Origin: Bifidobacterium asteroides
GTDB taxonomy: Bacteria; Actinomycetota; Actinomycetes; Actinomycetales; Bifidobacteriaceae
NCBI RefSeq assembly: GCF_030758775.1
Contig: NZ_CP132384.1
Coordinates: forward strand, 620,001 to 684,000
Direction of reading: 5' to 3'
DNA length: 64,000 nt
Numbering within the stretch: position 1 is the stretch's first letter; each line of letters starts with the position of its first letter. The notes beneath the pieces are model-generated. The model was not told where the DNA came from. It worked only from the letters and a program-made list of their open reading frames with translations, and searched no databases. Shown piece after piece: positions 59,172 through 63,696 of the stretch. The position numbers were made by a program, and so were the translations under genes.

Positions 59172-60433
59172 AGACCGGCAAGGGTCGCAGCGCCTCCGGC
59201 GGAGCCTCTTCCAGAAGCAGGGCCGTCCGGGCTGCCAAGGCCGCACGGACAGCCCGGTCTGGGCGCACCGCCAAGCCTTTGGGAGAGGAACCGCAGACCG
59301 GCAGAAACGCCAGATCGGGAAGGTCGGCCGCTTCCGATGCTGCGGGATTGGCAGGTCGCCGGTCCAAGGCTGAAAAGACAGGCGGCAGGGGCAGGCGTCT
59401 CAAGCGGTCCAAGCGTCTCAAGAGTCGTCCCAATCGTGCCAAGAATGCAGGCGGATCCCGGACGCGTAGCCCAAGGTCGGCCTCTTCATCCTCCCGCTCG
59501 CTGGTCAAAGGCAGCAGCGCCTCAGCCTCCAAGTCTGTGGCATCCAAGTCTGCAGAATCTCGTTCGACGAGTTCGGCCGGCGGATTCGTCGATGCCCGGA
59601 CCATACCGCCGGACCGACCCGTCTCAGGCAGGATTGGCACCGACCAGGAGGATCAGGGGCTGGGGATCTTCGTACGGCCCAAGGTTCTGGACTTTCAGGC
59701 CCGGGTGCGCGAGAAGAAGAAGGTCAGTCGCAGGCTGGTCCTGATCCGGACAGGTGTCGTCCTCCTGGTCATGGCTCTGATTGCAGGACTGTCATGGCTG
59801 CTTTTTCTCTCGCCGGTCTTCCGCCTGCAGACCGAAAAGATCGATGTCAGCGGCGGCAATGCATGGGTGTCCAACGATCGGGTGGCCTCAATCGTGGCTC
59901 ATCAGGGGGATCGCTCGCTGCTGCTGATTTCCACTAATGGAGTCGAGGAGGAGATCAGCGGCATGGCCGGGGTGACCGATGCCAAGGTCCGCAAGAGTTT
60001 TCCGCACGGTCTGGAGGTGACCTTCGATGCCCAGGAGCCCACTGCGGTCTTCAAGGATGCACAGGACAGACTGACGGCCGTAGACAGACAGGGAAGGGTG
60101 CTCAATACTGTGTCCAAGCCGGTGAAGGGAGTGCCGGTCATCCAGGTCTCCACCGTCAACCGTGCCCAGCAGGATCAGGCGGTCAGGCAGACCCTGCGGA
60201 TACTGTCGACCATGCCCGAGGCCATGCGTCATTCGGTGACCAAGGTGACTGCGGAAACCCAGGACTCCATCACCACCGAGCTGGACCAGGGCAAACATGT
60301 CATCATCTGGGGCGACGGCTCCGACCTGAAGCTCAAGCAGGCGGTGGTCGACAAGATCATCAATGATCCGTCCAAGATCGGCGACAAGCATCAGTTGGAT
60401 GTGTCGGCGCCCCTGCGACCCATCGTTAAATAG
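59168..60433 (+). CDS. ftsQ: cell division protein FtsQ
   Basis: FtsQ bridges FtsB/FtsL to the division machinery. The first 160 residues are a basic Ser/Arg/Lys/Ala-rich cytoplasmic tail of low complexity. A transmembrane helix (about 190-215) and a POTRA domain (about 222-290, with EKIDVSGGNAWVSNDRV and GVTDAKVRKSFPHGLEV) follow, then the beta domain. The GTG start lies in the murC stop. It converges on dtd with an eight-base overlap. No ddl or ftsA follows. Confidence 0.92.
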   Translation: MKTGKGRSASGGASSRSRAVRAAKAARTARSGRTAKPLGEEPQTGRNARSGRSAASDAAGLAGRRSKAEKTGGRGRRLKRSKRLKSRPNRAKNAGGSRTRSPRSASSSSRSLVKGSSASASKSVASKSAESRSTSSAGGFVDARTIPPDRPVSGRIGTDQEDQGLGIFVRPKVLDFQARVREKKKVSRRLVLIRTGVVLLVMALIAGLSWLLFLSPVFRLQTEKIDVSGGNAWVSNDRVASIVAHQGDRSLLLISTNGVEEEISGMAGVTDAKVRKSFPHGLEVTFDAQEPTAVFKDAQDRLTAVDRQGRVLNTVSKPVKGVPVIQVSTVNRAQQDQAVRQTLRILSTMPEAMRHSVTKVTAETQDSITTELDQGKHVIIWGDGSDLKLKQAVVDKIINDPSKIGDKHQLDVSAPLRPIVK

Positions 60434-60926
60434 TCGCTGAAGGAGCAGCCGTCTTCAGCAGCCTGTCGGTATCCAGCAGGATGGTCACCGGTCCGTCGTT
60501 GACCAGATCCACTCGCATGTGGGCGCCGAATTGTCCGACGGCAACTGGCACACCGGTCGCGGCCAGGGCTCGGTTCAGGTCCTGCCAGACGCTTTGGGCG
60601 TGTCGGGGCTCTCCGGCCGCCATGAAGCTGGGACGATTGCCGCGACGCAGATCCGCATAGAGGGTGAACTGGGAGATGGAGAGGATGGAGCCGCCGCAGT
60701 CCAGGACCGACCGGTTCATCCGGCCCTCCTCATCGGCGAAGATGCGCATCCGTGTCAGCTTGCGCACGGCATAGTCCACCTGGGCATCGCCGTCGCTGTC
60801 CTGGACGGCCACCAGGAGCAGGAGACCCGTGCCGATGCTCTGTGGCGTGAAATCGGGATCCGGCTGCCCCTGCTCGTCGACCACATCGACCCGTGCACGG
60901 CTGACCCGTTGTATAACGATTCTCAT
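60426..60926 (-). CDS. dtd: D-aminoacyl-tRNA deacylase
   Basis: Dtd removes D-amino acids (and mischarged glycine) from tRNA. The family motifs SQFTLYADLRRGNRPSF and NDGPVTILLD are present, and the N-terminus (MRIVIQRVSRARVDV) is typical. The 166-residue length is slightly long because of an insert near residues 20-35. Its 3' end overlaps that of ftsQ. Confidence 0.95.
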   Translation of the reverse strand: MRIVIQRVSRARVDVVDEQGQPDPDFTPQSIGTGLLLLVAVQDSDGDAQVDYAVRKLTRMRIFADEEGRMNRSVLDCGGSILSISQFTLYADLRRGNRPSFMAAGEPRHAQSVWQDLNRALAATGVPVAVGQFGAHMRVDLVNDGPVTILLDTDRLLKTAAPSATI

Positions 60927-60944: not shown

Positions 60945-61214
60945 TCAGGCGTTGTTATAGTGCCGAAGGGAAAAGCTGGGCCGGTATTTGGTGGGGGTCA
61001 GGGTAAAGAGCCGTTTGAAGACCAGCATGAGGGATGCCCGCTTCAACGGAGGCATGACAGAGCGATTCTTGTCAACGGTCCAGTCAATGGCTATTTCCAC
61101 AACTCTTTCGGTATGCAGCTTCAGGCCGAAGTCCACTATGCCCGTGTTATTAAGGTAATCCTGACAGACTGGATCATCGATACAGTCCTGATCAGTGTGC
61201 ACGGATGATGTCAT
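60945..61214 (-). CDS. small hypothetical ORF upstream of dtd
   Basis: This 89-residue frame lies 18 bases before dtd on the same strand. I do not recognise it. It has no membrane segment and an AT-richer composition than its neighbours. A weak AGCAGG lies nine bases before the ATG. It may be a real small gene or leftover coding sequence, as the next gene (GNAT) is also broken. Confidence 0.3.
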   Translation of the reverse strand: MTSSVHTDQDCIDDPVCQDYLNNTGIVDFGLKLHTERVVEIAIDWTVDKNRSVMPPLKRASLMLVFKRLFTLTPTKYRPSFSLRHYNNA

Positions 61215-61485
61215 GATGAATTACCTGCTTCCCTCTGGGGGGCGGATTCTGGCCACTCATGGTTTGCGTCGGGTCGTCTCCGATCCGTCGGTGCCGCTCG
61301 GCTGTACAGACGCATCCGTCAATTGACTGCTGCGTCATGCTCCAGTCGGTCTGAACGTCGGTGCCCAAGGTGAAGGCGTGCTCGCCGGTCCGTTTGAAGC
61401 CCATGGCCTGATAGAAACGTTGAGCGGGCTCATTTGTTCTTAATTCGGTCGCTGGGATATGTCTGTGTTGATGGCCACTGTTCTC
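61192..61485 (-). pseudogene. truncated GNAT-family N-acetyltransferase
   Basis: The frame reads HIPATELRTNEPAQRFYQ, then AMGFKRTGEHAFTLGTDV and QTDWSM. That is the C-terminal third of a GNAT acetyltransferase (the NEPAxxFYxxxGF motif and the TDW ending). The N-terminal acetyl-CoA-binding part is missing: upstream the frame runs into the 3' end of the SMR gene. The tail after TDWSM is also non-standard. It appears to be a remnant left by insertion or deletion at the SMR gene boundary. Confidence 0.7.
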
Positions 61486-61801
61486 AGTTGACGACCTTGA
61501 GTCCGACCACGCAGGCGACCAAACCGATGATGAGCAGAATGCGGGCGAGTGAAACAGGCTCCGAGCCCGTAGCCATGGCGTATAGGACAGTCAAGGCAGC
61601 TCCGATGCCGACCCAGACCGCGTAGGCCGTGCTGGTAGGGATGTTGCGCATGGCAAAGGCTAGACCCATCATGCTGAGAATCAATCCAACGATGAAAACC
61701 ATGTCCGGGACGATTTTGGTAAAGCCTTGAGACTTGCCTAGGGCGGTGGCCCAGACTGATTCACAGATGCCAGCGAGTATGAGTACGATCCACGAGGACA
61801 T
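61484..61801 (-). CDS. gdx: SMR-family exporter, probable guanidinium exporter (Gdx/SugE type)
   Basis: This 105-residue, four-helix small multidrug resistance protein has the key Glu in GICESVWATALG. The MRNIPTSTAYAVWVGIG stretch fits the Gdx (SugE) branch better than EmrE. Gdx proteins export guanidinium in exchange for protons. ATG 61801 has AAAGG five bases upstream. A guanidine-III-like riboswitch lies directly before it, which strongly supports guanidinium as substrate. An in-frame ATG at 61846 would lie inside the riboswitch and is rejected. Confidence 0.87.
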   Translation of the reverse strand: MSSWIVLILAGICESVWATALGKSQGFTKIVPDMVFIVGLILSMMGLAFAMRNIPTSTAYAVWVGIGAALTVLYAMATGSEPVSLARILLIIGLVACVVGLKVVN

Positions 61802-61804
61802 GGC

Positions 61805-61853
61805 TGCCTTTCGGCAAGTCTTGTCGCTGTCCGGGTACTTGACCATCGTCCGG
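61805..61853 (-). promoter_or_regulatory. guanidine-III (ykkC-III) riboswitch with RBS-sequestering hairpin
   Basis: On the minus strand, 61853 down to 61813 (41 bases) has CCGGACGA at the 5' end, GTACCCGG in the middle and GACAAGAC near the 3' end. These sit in the order and spacing of the guanidine-III aptamer as I recall it from Thermobifida/Thermus-type structures. The pairing arms covary: GGTCAAG pairs with CTTGCC here. The 3' arm overlaps TGCC-GAAA-GGCA (61805-61816), a hairpin that hides the AAAGG ribosome site. Ligand binding would free the site, so this is a translational ON switch. Confidence 0.85.
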
Positions 61854-61870
61854 GAACCTGCATCAGGTTC
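61854..61870 (-). promoter_or_regulatory. perfect hairpin directly upstream of the riboswitch
   Basis: On the minus strand GAACCTG and CAGGTTC form a perfect 7-bp stem with a three-base loop, touching the aptamer 5' end. It may be part of the leader or insulate the aptamer; function unknown. Confidence 0.5.
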
Positions 61871-61878
61871 TGCGCATC

Positions 61879-61884
61879 AGAGTA
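61879..61884 (-). promoter_or_regulatory. possible extended -10 box of the SMR gene
   Basis: On the minus strand TGCTACTCT gives a TGn-extended -10 (TACTCT). Transcription would begin about 75 bases before the ATG, leaving room for the hairpin and riboswitch. No good -35 box is visible. Confidence 0.3.
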
Positions 61885-62094
61885 GCACGGGTTGAATCGT
61901 AAGATGTTGAGTCAGATATTTTTATGGCGGTTCAAAGGCCGTAAATGATCAATGCCGATTCAATTCGTCAAAGATCCTGCACATTTGGGATTACATTGTT
62001 GCTTGTCCACGAGGAATGGAGAACGCTGCAACCTAGGTGATCTGGTCGATTAAAGCTGTCAAAAGCACACATGGTTACATCGCATGTCTTGGCT

Positions 62095-63696
62095 TCACCG
62101 CCTCACTAGCGTCAGTATCAGCTGCCACCTTCCTTTGAAGCTGGAAAAACTATGAGTGATGACTTTTTGTAGTCTTTCCTCGTTATCAGCCTCTGAGCTT
62201 ATAGATGTTGATAAGTACTGACGATCATCGAAGATAGCAGCTAAATAGATTTTGCAGTCCTCTTGGTCGCAACAATTGAACTCTGGATCATTGGTGTCGA
62301 TTTTATTTATCAAGCGTGTGATAGCGCGTTGACGTTCTGTTGCTTCAGGACTTATATCGTTTTTCTGTTTGAGGTTATCAGATTCTAGGGTTTTCTGAAG
62401 TTCCTGAGTTGATAAAGAAAGCAAGGGAACTTGATTTGTGGTGCGGGAAGCGGGATCACATATTTCTGCCCATTTCCCTTTTTCAGCGGGTATTATGACG
62501 GTATGCATCAAATACTCGCGATGAGTATCCACGGATAATTCGGAGCTTAAGTATGACGCCGCAATTTTTGTGAATGCTTCGTAGTGAATCTGTTCTATAT
62601 TACGCTGGTCATCTTTTATCAAATTGCTAACCCACCATTTATGAATGGGAGCTAAAAACCAATTCCAGCAGGGTAGCAGATAGATGACGACGATCAATAT
62701 CGGCACCAAAAGAGTGATTAAGAACATAGGCATAGTTGTTGGATTCAATACGATGGCAAAGGTAAGCACTGATATAAGCCAAGAAGACAATACTGTAAAG
62801 ACTCGATATATCCATTTACAAACCATGCGACCCTTGTAGTGTTCTAGGTTCTTTCTACTTGGGCGACCGCCAACGCCGATGTCTAGCATAAACAGAGGAT
62901 CTAACAAGCAAGGAACCAGCTCAAAAGCAACAGTTATAATAAACGTCCCTATAGAGGCCACTGGGTGATTGTTTATTCTGGCGAATAGCGCTGCTATTCC
63001 ATATGTTATAAAAGCAGCAGGAGTAGTCATGAGTATCAATCCGCAAGTAATACGAAGAAAAGCATCGGCTTTCGGGTGTCTTCTGACCAATGATCCCTTA
63101 GCTAATGACTGATATTCATTGAGGTGATCTGATCTCAGCATTTCGTTTTCCTGTATCATGTGAAACGAAAAGACCTGTTTTACGCCATAGCTAAGAGCAA
63201 AGGCTGCGATATTGAGGCTGACGAATATCAATAACAGGCTCAGACCAAAATCGTTCTGCTGCAACATATCAGGAGATATGTAGCCTGTGACAATGCTAAT
63301 AGCACATGACAGGAAACAGACGAATACAATGAATGCTCTCGCTTTGCTGGATGATTCAGGAGTTTTTGTTTCCAAAAAAGCTGTCACAATAATGACGCTT
63401 ATGATTAATGTCCACAAAGCCAGCAGCATATTTGCAGAGTCTTTATAGGGATTGTCAAGCACGAAATTGTGGGGGAAGGTATTTTGCTTATACCAACTTC
63501 GCTCTGCTTTATTTTCAATTAAGTTATATTCTGCCAACCTGAGACCGATTCCTGATGCTAAAAGCAGGACAGAGTATGCTATTGCTACAAAGAATTGCCT
63601 TACATTTTCAGCGTGCCAGCTTTCTGCTGGATGGAATATTGGAGCAATACTCGAATGATCTCTTGTAGTGGACATAATTGAAACCCGCTCTATCAT
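62095..63696 (-). CDS. large multi-pass membrane protein of unknown function, low GC
   Basis: I do not recognise this 533-residue protein. About eight hydrophobic segments occur between residues 33 and 352 (near 33-55, 87-108, 118-142, 148-170, 216-240, 246-268, 300-322 and 327-352). A soluble, charged C-terminal domain of about 180 residues follows, with a Cys-rich patch (EFNCCDQEDCKIY). Base composition is far more AT-rich (about 40-45% GC) than the rest of the window, a sign of transfer. Possible starts are ATG 63696 (GAGAG three bases upstream) and ATG 63675. No partner gene is visible in the window; the next gene to the right is outside. Confidence 0.75.
   Translation of the reverse strand: MIERVSIMSTTRDHSSIAPIFHPAESWHAENVRQFFVAIAYSVLLLASGIGLRLAEYNLIENKAERSWYKQNTFPHNFVLDNPYKDSANMLLALWTLIISVIIVTAFLETKTPESSSKARAFIVFVCFLSCAISIVTGYISPDMLQQNDFGLSLLLIFVSLNIAAFALSYGVKQVFSFHMIQENEMLRSDHLNEYQSLAKGSLVRRHPKADAFLRITCGLILMTTPAAFITYGIAALFARINNHPVASIGTFIITVAFELVPCLLDPLFMLDIGVGGRPSRKNLEHYKGRMVCKWIYRVFTVLSSWLISVLTFAIVLNPTTMPMFLITLLVPILIVVIYLLPCWNWFLAPIHKWWVSNLIKDDQRNIEQIHYEAFTKIAASYLSSELSVDTHREYLMHTVIIPAEKGKWAEICDPASRTTNQVPLLSLSTQELQKTLESDNLKQKNDISPEATERQRAITRLINKIDTNDPEFNCCDQEDCKIYLAAIFDDRQYLSTSISSEADNEERLQKVITHSFSSFKGRWQLILTLVRR

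Follow-up and report, generated by a model that had tools for sequence, protein, structure and literature searches.

A guanidine-III riboswitch ahead of a likely Gdx-type SMR exporter gene in Bifidobacterium asteroides

In the 64,000-nucleotide stretch of Bifidobacterium asteroides DNA analyzed here (the window), a guanidine-III (ykkC-III) aptamer stands on the minus strand directly before a gene for an SMR transporter. We consider it very probable that a Gdx-type SMR exporter is under the control of this riboswitch, which would open a short leader, and that guanidinium frees the start region, so that the cell produces the pump in the presence of guanidine. The riboswitch had been guessed from raw sequence in an earlier note and is now confirmed by a covariance model and by comparison with relatives; guanidine sensing can thus be placed in the asteroides group of Bifidobacterium, which lives in bee guts.

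Results

The aptamer and the conservation of its structure

When the 4227 covariance models of Rfam 15 were run on the whole 64-kb window, only RF01763 passed its threshold, with a single match to the minus strand at 61873-61810 (Table 1). The match scores 54.3 bits where the gathering threshold is 36 bits, which bears out the class proposed in the earlier note, and no aptamer of the genus scores higher. The 41-base core described there proved exact, running from CCGGACGA to ACTTGCC (61853-61813), and the conserved blocks CCGGACGA, GTACCCGG, and GACAAGAC lie where they had been placed; the full Rfam motif extends beyond this core by an additional 5′ hairpin, P1. The core is unchanged at the invariant class III positions. 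The window RNA agrees with the RF01763 class in core, P1, P2, pseudoknot, occurrence in Actinobacteria, and place before an SMR (emrE/sugE) gene; no difference was seen in the aptamer, whereas the downstream pairing with the potential to mask the start is unlike that of sister species.

Table 1. Features of the riboswitch locus and of the second guanidine-III locus of the same genome (window positions unless stated).
Feature	Position	Strand	Details
Extended -10 element TGCTACTCT	61879..61887	-	TGnTAnnnT pattern
Guanidine-III (ykkC-III) aptamer, full Rfam motif	61810..61873	-	RF01763, 54.3 bits, E 1.8e-8
P1 hairpin GAACCTG-ATG-CAGGTTC	61854..61870	-	Model pairs columns 6-10/16-20
Pseudoknot 5′ strand CCGG	61850..61853	-	Partner CCGG 61834-61831; 100% paired in 32 sequences
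Invariant ACGA	61849-61846	-	Directly after pseudoknot 5′ strand; identical in all 32 aligned sequences
P2 5′ strand GGTCAAGT	61837..61844	-	GG(U)CAAGU with U bulge; pairs with ACUUGCC 61819-61813
AC, then pseudoknot 3′ strand CCGG	61834-61831 (CCGG)	-	3′ of P2 5′ strand
GACAAGAC block	61825-61818	-	Present in window aptamer; class feature of most members
P2 3′ strand ACTTGCC	61813..61819	-	Common to alternative RBS hairpin
Alternative hairpin TGCC-GAAA-GGCA of the earlier note	61805..61816	-	12 bases, -5.0 kcal/mol
SD-like GAAAGG	61807..61812	-	5 nt ahead of ATG, within TGCC-GAAA-GGCA hairpin
SMR transporter gene, Gdx/SugE (guanidinium exporter) type	61484..61801	-	105 aa; Pfam PF00893, 4.9e-22
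Relic of PaiA/LcGNAT-like N-acetyltransferase	61336..61437	-	C-terminus, 34 residues; 79% identity, E 8.2e-14
Decayed type B locus	L058:4480-5206 (C1 about 1403479-1404205)		Window's own genome

Structure conservation was evaluated in an alignment of 32 aptamers that we selected from a larger set. Standard pairs filled 98.7% of the 317 cells formed by the pseudoknot, the P2 core, and the C-G pair, compared with 18-49% when partners were slid by 1-3 columns, and the window aptamer forms all 10 of the 10 pairs. Two-sided changes occurred in 38 cells, whereas shuffles averaged 12.9 and none of 500 reached that number, although the number of pairs bearing such changes, 4 of 10, was not above shuffles (286/500). 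The P2 core pairs were 97.5% kept, with two-sided changes at three of the five, and in five family members the CCGG/CCGG pseudoknot has become CCUG/CAGG, a compensatory replacement of one G-C pair by U-A. The pseudoknot and P2 therefore covary across relatives. The GACAAGAC block is more variable: five of the aligned aptamers carry GCAAAGAC and three rows from the type B loci described below are shortened there. The CCUG/CAGG loci are L065, L066, L070, L071, and L072; L070 and L071 also have perfect GACTTGCC/GGCAAGTC hairpins ahead of the SMR start.

The transporter gene

The gene after the aptamer had been called an SMR gene in the earlier note, an assignment now secured by Pfam, and comparison with known structures narrows it further. 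The best PDB match of the protein is 6wk5 (Gdx-Clo; 3.6e-21), with EmrE far behind (1.5e-7). The match is full-length, and E14, W17, S43, Y60, and W63 align with Gdx-Clo residues E13, W16, S42, Y59, and W62, whose roles are described in part of PMC7695847; a passage of the same paper gives Trp16 as the mark of the Gdx subtype, with Gly or Ala at that position in Qac. The 6wk5 match taken together with W17 makes a guanidinium exporter of the Gdx subtype the likely product, although the protein differs from Gdx/SugE exporters in scoring 81.9 bits with the NCBIfam SugE model, below its cut-off of 126. A start at 61846, which would give an ORF of 120 aa, was rejected in favor of the ATG at 61801 with its SD, as it would place part of the aptamer within the gene.

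A search of the genome for the CT_A_B carboxylase domain of guanidine breakdown found none. The B3/4 domain occurs once in the genome, inside a 921-residue frame that we take to be PheT, so there is no sign in this genome of a stand-alone canavanyl-tRNA deacylase.

The promoter and the leader

The extended -10 element at 61887-61879 would set the start of the transcript at about 61872, the 5′ edge of P1, which suggests that the leader is short and begins with the aptamer itself. The same TGnTAnnnT pattern precedes the CCGG core by 27-47 nt at 36 of 43 bifidobacterial loci, compared with a mean of 0.77 and a maximum of 4 in 200 shuffles, the pattern and distance having been picked after inspection of the leaders. 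A general sigma-70 scan, which requires two hexamers, found no minus-strand promoter. Transcription termination was rejected, since no terminator-like site lies within 61440-62090 and the 11 bases between the end of P2 and the ATG at 61801 leave no room for one. Control of translation, as expected in the earlier note, or of stability is thereby supported over termination.

Pairings between the aptamer and the start region

According to the earlier note, the 3′ arm of the aptamer alternatively forms TGCC-GAAA-GGCA, covering the ribosome binding site in a fold that excludes the aptamer. The hairpin exists and covers GAAAGG, SD-like by its complementarity to the 3′ end of 16S rRNA, and it takes four bases of the P2 3′ arm, so that hairpin and P2 are mutually exclusive. 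In isolation the hairpin has a z of -3.8 (5 of 200 shuffles equal it); the leader in its full length is no more stable than shuffled versions, whether 80 bases (z -0.94, 37/200) or 106 bases (z -0.52, 51/200) are taken. However, complementarity between the P2 arm and the start region of the window leader was not above chance in either of two tests (p 0.342 and p 0.227), and none of the 16 remaining leaders at SMR loci of the genus has the hairpin in this form. The part of the proposal that concerns the existence and placement of the hairpin therefore stands, while the pairing is not above chance and is confined to 1 of 17 genus loci.

The cost of opening GAAAGG, computed with fold programs that do not model the pseudoknot, was 6.29 kcal/mol in the free leader vs. 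1.00 kcal/mol with the aptamer locked, a difference matched by 16 of 200 shuffled leaders and variable with the length of the fold window. A start could be assigned at 14 of the 17 SMR loci of the genus (the other three are decayed), and the locking difference was positive in 13 of these 14. In the shuffle test, which covered 13 genus leaders and left out G017, the nine asteroides-group sisters showed effects no larger than shuffles (98-150 of 200; 0.21-1.57 kcal/mol). Among SMR leaders outside the genus the effect was positive in 7 of 13 and negative in 6 of 13, down to -2.99, and it was negative in G066 despite a perfect hairpin. Leaders entered this last comparison when a start and an SD were found by rule; G073, G153, G103, and G043 had a start but no SD, and G110 and G098 were left out for their core pattern and start, respectively.

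Pairing with the start region recurs elsewhere in other forms. In seven sister leaders a GGTTCCC in the P1/pseudoknot region is complementary to a GGGAACC or GGGAGCC before the ATG, giving a 7-bp pairing with p 0.0015-0.0065, or 0.020-0.035 when a longer region is allowed; because the seven species are closely related, this is nearer one observation than seven. The corresponding pairing did not pass the threshold in G008 and G010 (p 0.08 and 0.11). The decayed loci of G011, G012, and G025 retain the complementarity (p 0.027-0.047), which indicates that it is not tied to function. Use of the P2 arm is seen in the B. psychraerophilum group, with p 0.02-0.03 in G016 and G023 and 0.21 in G024, and in more distant bifidobacteria with perfect 8-bp P2-arm hairpins, namely G057 and G066 (p 0.0005) and G094 (p 0.002). 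Across the 32 of 46 leaders that entered the pairing test (excluding seven type B loci, two acetyltransferase loci, G119, three decayed SMR loci, and G098), p was below 0.05 for the P2 arm in 11 and for the P1/pseudoknot strand in 8; a start was found by rule at one of the seven type B loci. Fisher's method, applied to 14 representatives of our own choosing, some of which may share ancestry, gave p 7e-6 for the P2 arm and p 0.02 for the P1/pseudoknot pairing.

Our reading of these leaders is that masking of the start site may be a common plan in which the masking strand has been swapped between lineages. The window hairpin is compatible with such a plan but does not establish it. The OFF fold in the window leader would most likely be the P2-arm hairpin over GAAAGG, and in the sister species pairing by the P1/pseudoknot strand appears more likely; the window leader is likely an ON switch. 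The earlier note is thus partly supported: it was correct in naming a guanidine-III riboswitch, an SMR target, a Bifidobacterium-like host, and the probable direction of control, but it specified the form of the switch too narrowly.

Distribution of the aptamer and its decay with the gene

Guanidine-III matches were found in 18 of 27 genomes of the genus (at E 0.001 or better; 17 above the cut-off), 39 of 189 genomes of the family (33 above), and 51 of 396 genomes of the phylum sample (42 above), the family and phylum searches having used stricter filters by which weak matches are lost. The 24 matches in the genus fall at two kinds of locus: 17 (14 above the cut-off) precede an SMR gene, hereafter type A, and 7 (4 above) precede a gene for a CBU_0592-ACT_7 protein, hereafter type B. 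Every orthologous SMR locus of the genus, whole or damaged, has the aptamer (17 of 17; 14 above and 3 below the cut-off), and the one other SMR match in the genus, in G026 (33% identity), has none. Of 29 phylum loci, 9 lacked the core by pattern and were left unclassified; an SMR match was present at 15 of the remaining 20 and at all of 27 further loci selected by pattern (partial in L081). At the phylum loci L129 and L147 the downstream ORFs match none of the SMR, acetyltransferase, and type B queries, that of L129 resembling a small membrane protein. In G119 a guanidine-III match of 45.3 bits (L057:4069-4134) has no SMR, acetyltransferase, or type B match within 9 kb.

Within the genus, decay of the gene and decay of the aptamer are linked. 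Aptamers of at least 36 bits precede 15 of 15 intact genes and 3 of 9 broken ones (Fisher p 6e-4, a value too optimistic because the species are related), and all six sub-threshold aptamers precede broken genes. In G011, G012, and G025, for example, the SMR gene is damaged and P2 pairs have been lost from the aptamer. The link is limited to the genus: elsewhere in the family, low-scoring aptamers in G057, G066, G101, and G110 (28.9-35.5 bits) precede SMR genes without a break visible by tblastn. The CCUG/CAGG pseudoknot, to which the Rfam model probably gives poor scores, is present in three of the four.

The acetyltransferase neighbor and the type B locus

An N-acetyltransferase (GNAT) gene follows the SMR gene at 11 of the 17 type A loci. 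It is broken in G008 and G019 and has one in-frame stop in G010, while the copies at eight sister loci show no break. No intact GNAT gene was found in the riboswitch operon of the window genome; what remains, shortly after the SMR gene, is the 34-residue relic alone, corresponding to residues 134-167 of the sister GNAT. The ORFs that flank the locus have no Pfam match. One of 89 residues (60945-61214, minus strand) lies between the relic and a gene at 60426-60926 that is presumably dtd-like, and one of 533 codons (62095-63696, minus strand), upstream of the riboswitch, resembles a membrane protein and has a similar ORF in G004 (L040).

The sister GNAT matches LcGNAT (8osp; 2.9e-38 over residues 3-167 of 167) and B. 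subtilis PaiA (1tiq; 8.3e-40). Being equally close to both, it was not assigned a substrate from its family. LcGNAT acetylates canavanine, as described in part of PMC10416765, and a passage of PMC9788692 places it under the control of a guanidine-IV riboswitch in Lactobacillus curiae. The sister-species GNAT adjoins a pump under a guanidine riboswitch; it is no closer to LcGNAT than to PaiA, and the window keeps the relic only. Additionally, a GNAT gene with a guanidine-III aptamer of its own is present in G143, and in G096 (probably B. phasiani; L055:3968-4934) separate aptamers, about 900 bases from one another, precede the GNAT gene and the SMR gene. A search of the literature, largely outside the subscription journals, found no report of class III in Bifidobacterium or together with a GNAT.

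The type B product, judged from the G009 protein, combines a CBU_0592 membrane domain with an ACT_7 domain. In GACAAGAC, the AA is missing from every one of the seven type B aptamers. Intact copies of the gene occur in G009, G018, and G025, where the aptamers score 44.4-44.6 bits. The window genome has its second copy of the aptamer, a type B copy, at genome position 1403479; this copy scores 28.9 bits, and the CBU_0592-ACT_7 gene that follows it is frame-broken.

Discussion

In the mechanism that we favor, binding of guanidinium would stabilize P2 and the CCGG/CCGG pseudoknot, which would then occupy strands otherwise able to pair with the start region, and guanidine would thereby induce the pump. 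If it behaves like the class in general, the folded aptamer may also shield the RNA from RNase E: a passage of the review PMC12186494 describes guanidine-III as both freeing the Shine-Dalgarno sequence and protecting the RNA from RNase E, and credits the protection to Richards and Belasco 2021.

The balance between these two effects could be quite different, with the aptamer acting mainly through mRNA stability, its 5′ knot blocking RNase E scanning while directly masking the ribosome binding site very little. Protection from RNase E scanning is described for guanidine-III in part of PMC12186494, and such an effect would suit the position of the aptamer at the probable 5′ end of the transcript, the nine asteroides-group sisters in which the SD-locking signal is absent beyond shuffles, and the 6 of 13 leaders outside the genus in which the locking effect has the wrong sign. 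The strong start-region pairing in G057 and G066 (p 0.0005) and in G094 (p 0.002) argues against it, as does the 7-bp pairing in seven sisters (p 0.0015-0.0065, in related species), and we regard stability as the main mode of action as rather unlikely.

Two further explanations concern what the RNA senses and whether it still works. An aptamer responding to another guanidino compound, such as hydroxyguanidine from canavanine, would accord with a GNAT family beside the pump that includes the canavanine acetyltransferase LcGNAT (8osp; described in part of PMC10416765), and a guanidine-I riboswitch that responds to hydroxyguanidine is reported in part of PMC10018355. However, the invariant class III core positions are unchanged at the SMR locus, for which reason a changed ligand there is thought unlikely, and the target is a Gdx-type exporter; this alternative is in our view very unlikely. 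It seems highly unlikely that the window sequence is a relic which has drifted and no longer works: the GNAT relic downstream and the decayed second aptamer (28.9 bits) do point to a system eroding in this lineage, and damage to the SMR locus goes together with a decayed aptamer in three other species, but the window copy has the top score of the genus, keeps all three of the conserved blocks, and is accompanied by a promoter element and an SMR gene without damage. Control of a guanidinium exporter by guanidinium thus remains the reading that we prefer.

With considerable doubt, we also suggest that guanidine-III in bifidobacteria might serve more than guanidine export, namely a small regulon that counters canavanine and other guanidino toxins, in which one copy would act on the pump and a PaiA/LcGNAT-like acetyltransferase and a shortened-junction variant on the CBU_0592-ACT membrane protein, with masking pairings refitted in each lineage and the regulon being lost piecewise in the asteroides group. 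The pairing of pump and acetyltransferase provides a class III example for the connection that has been proposed between the sensing of guanidine and toxins resembling canavanine. Furthermore, the species series, with the same aptamer and gene, differing pairings, and natural losses, offers ready variants for studying how expression platforms come to be swapped.

Guanidine-III riboswitches also precede speB genes, as described in part of PMC2864571. The aptamer is the same in that setting, whereas here the target is an exporter, in a genome without the CT_A_B carboxylase domain. In our phylum sample, speB-like ORFs, so named by the look of their translations, lie downstream of the aptamer at three loci (L124, L135, and L136).
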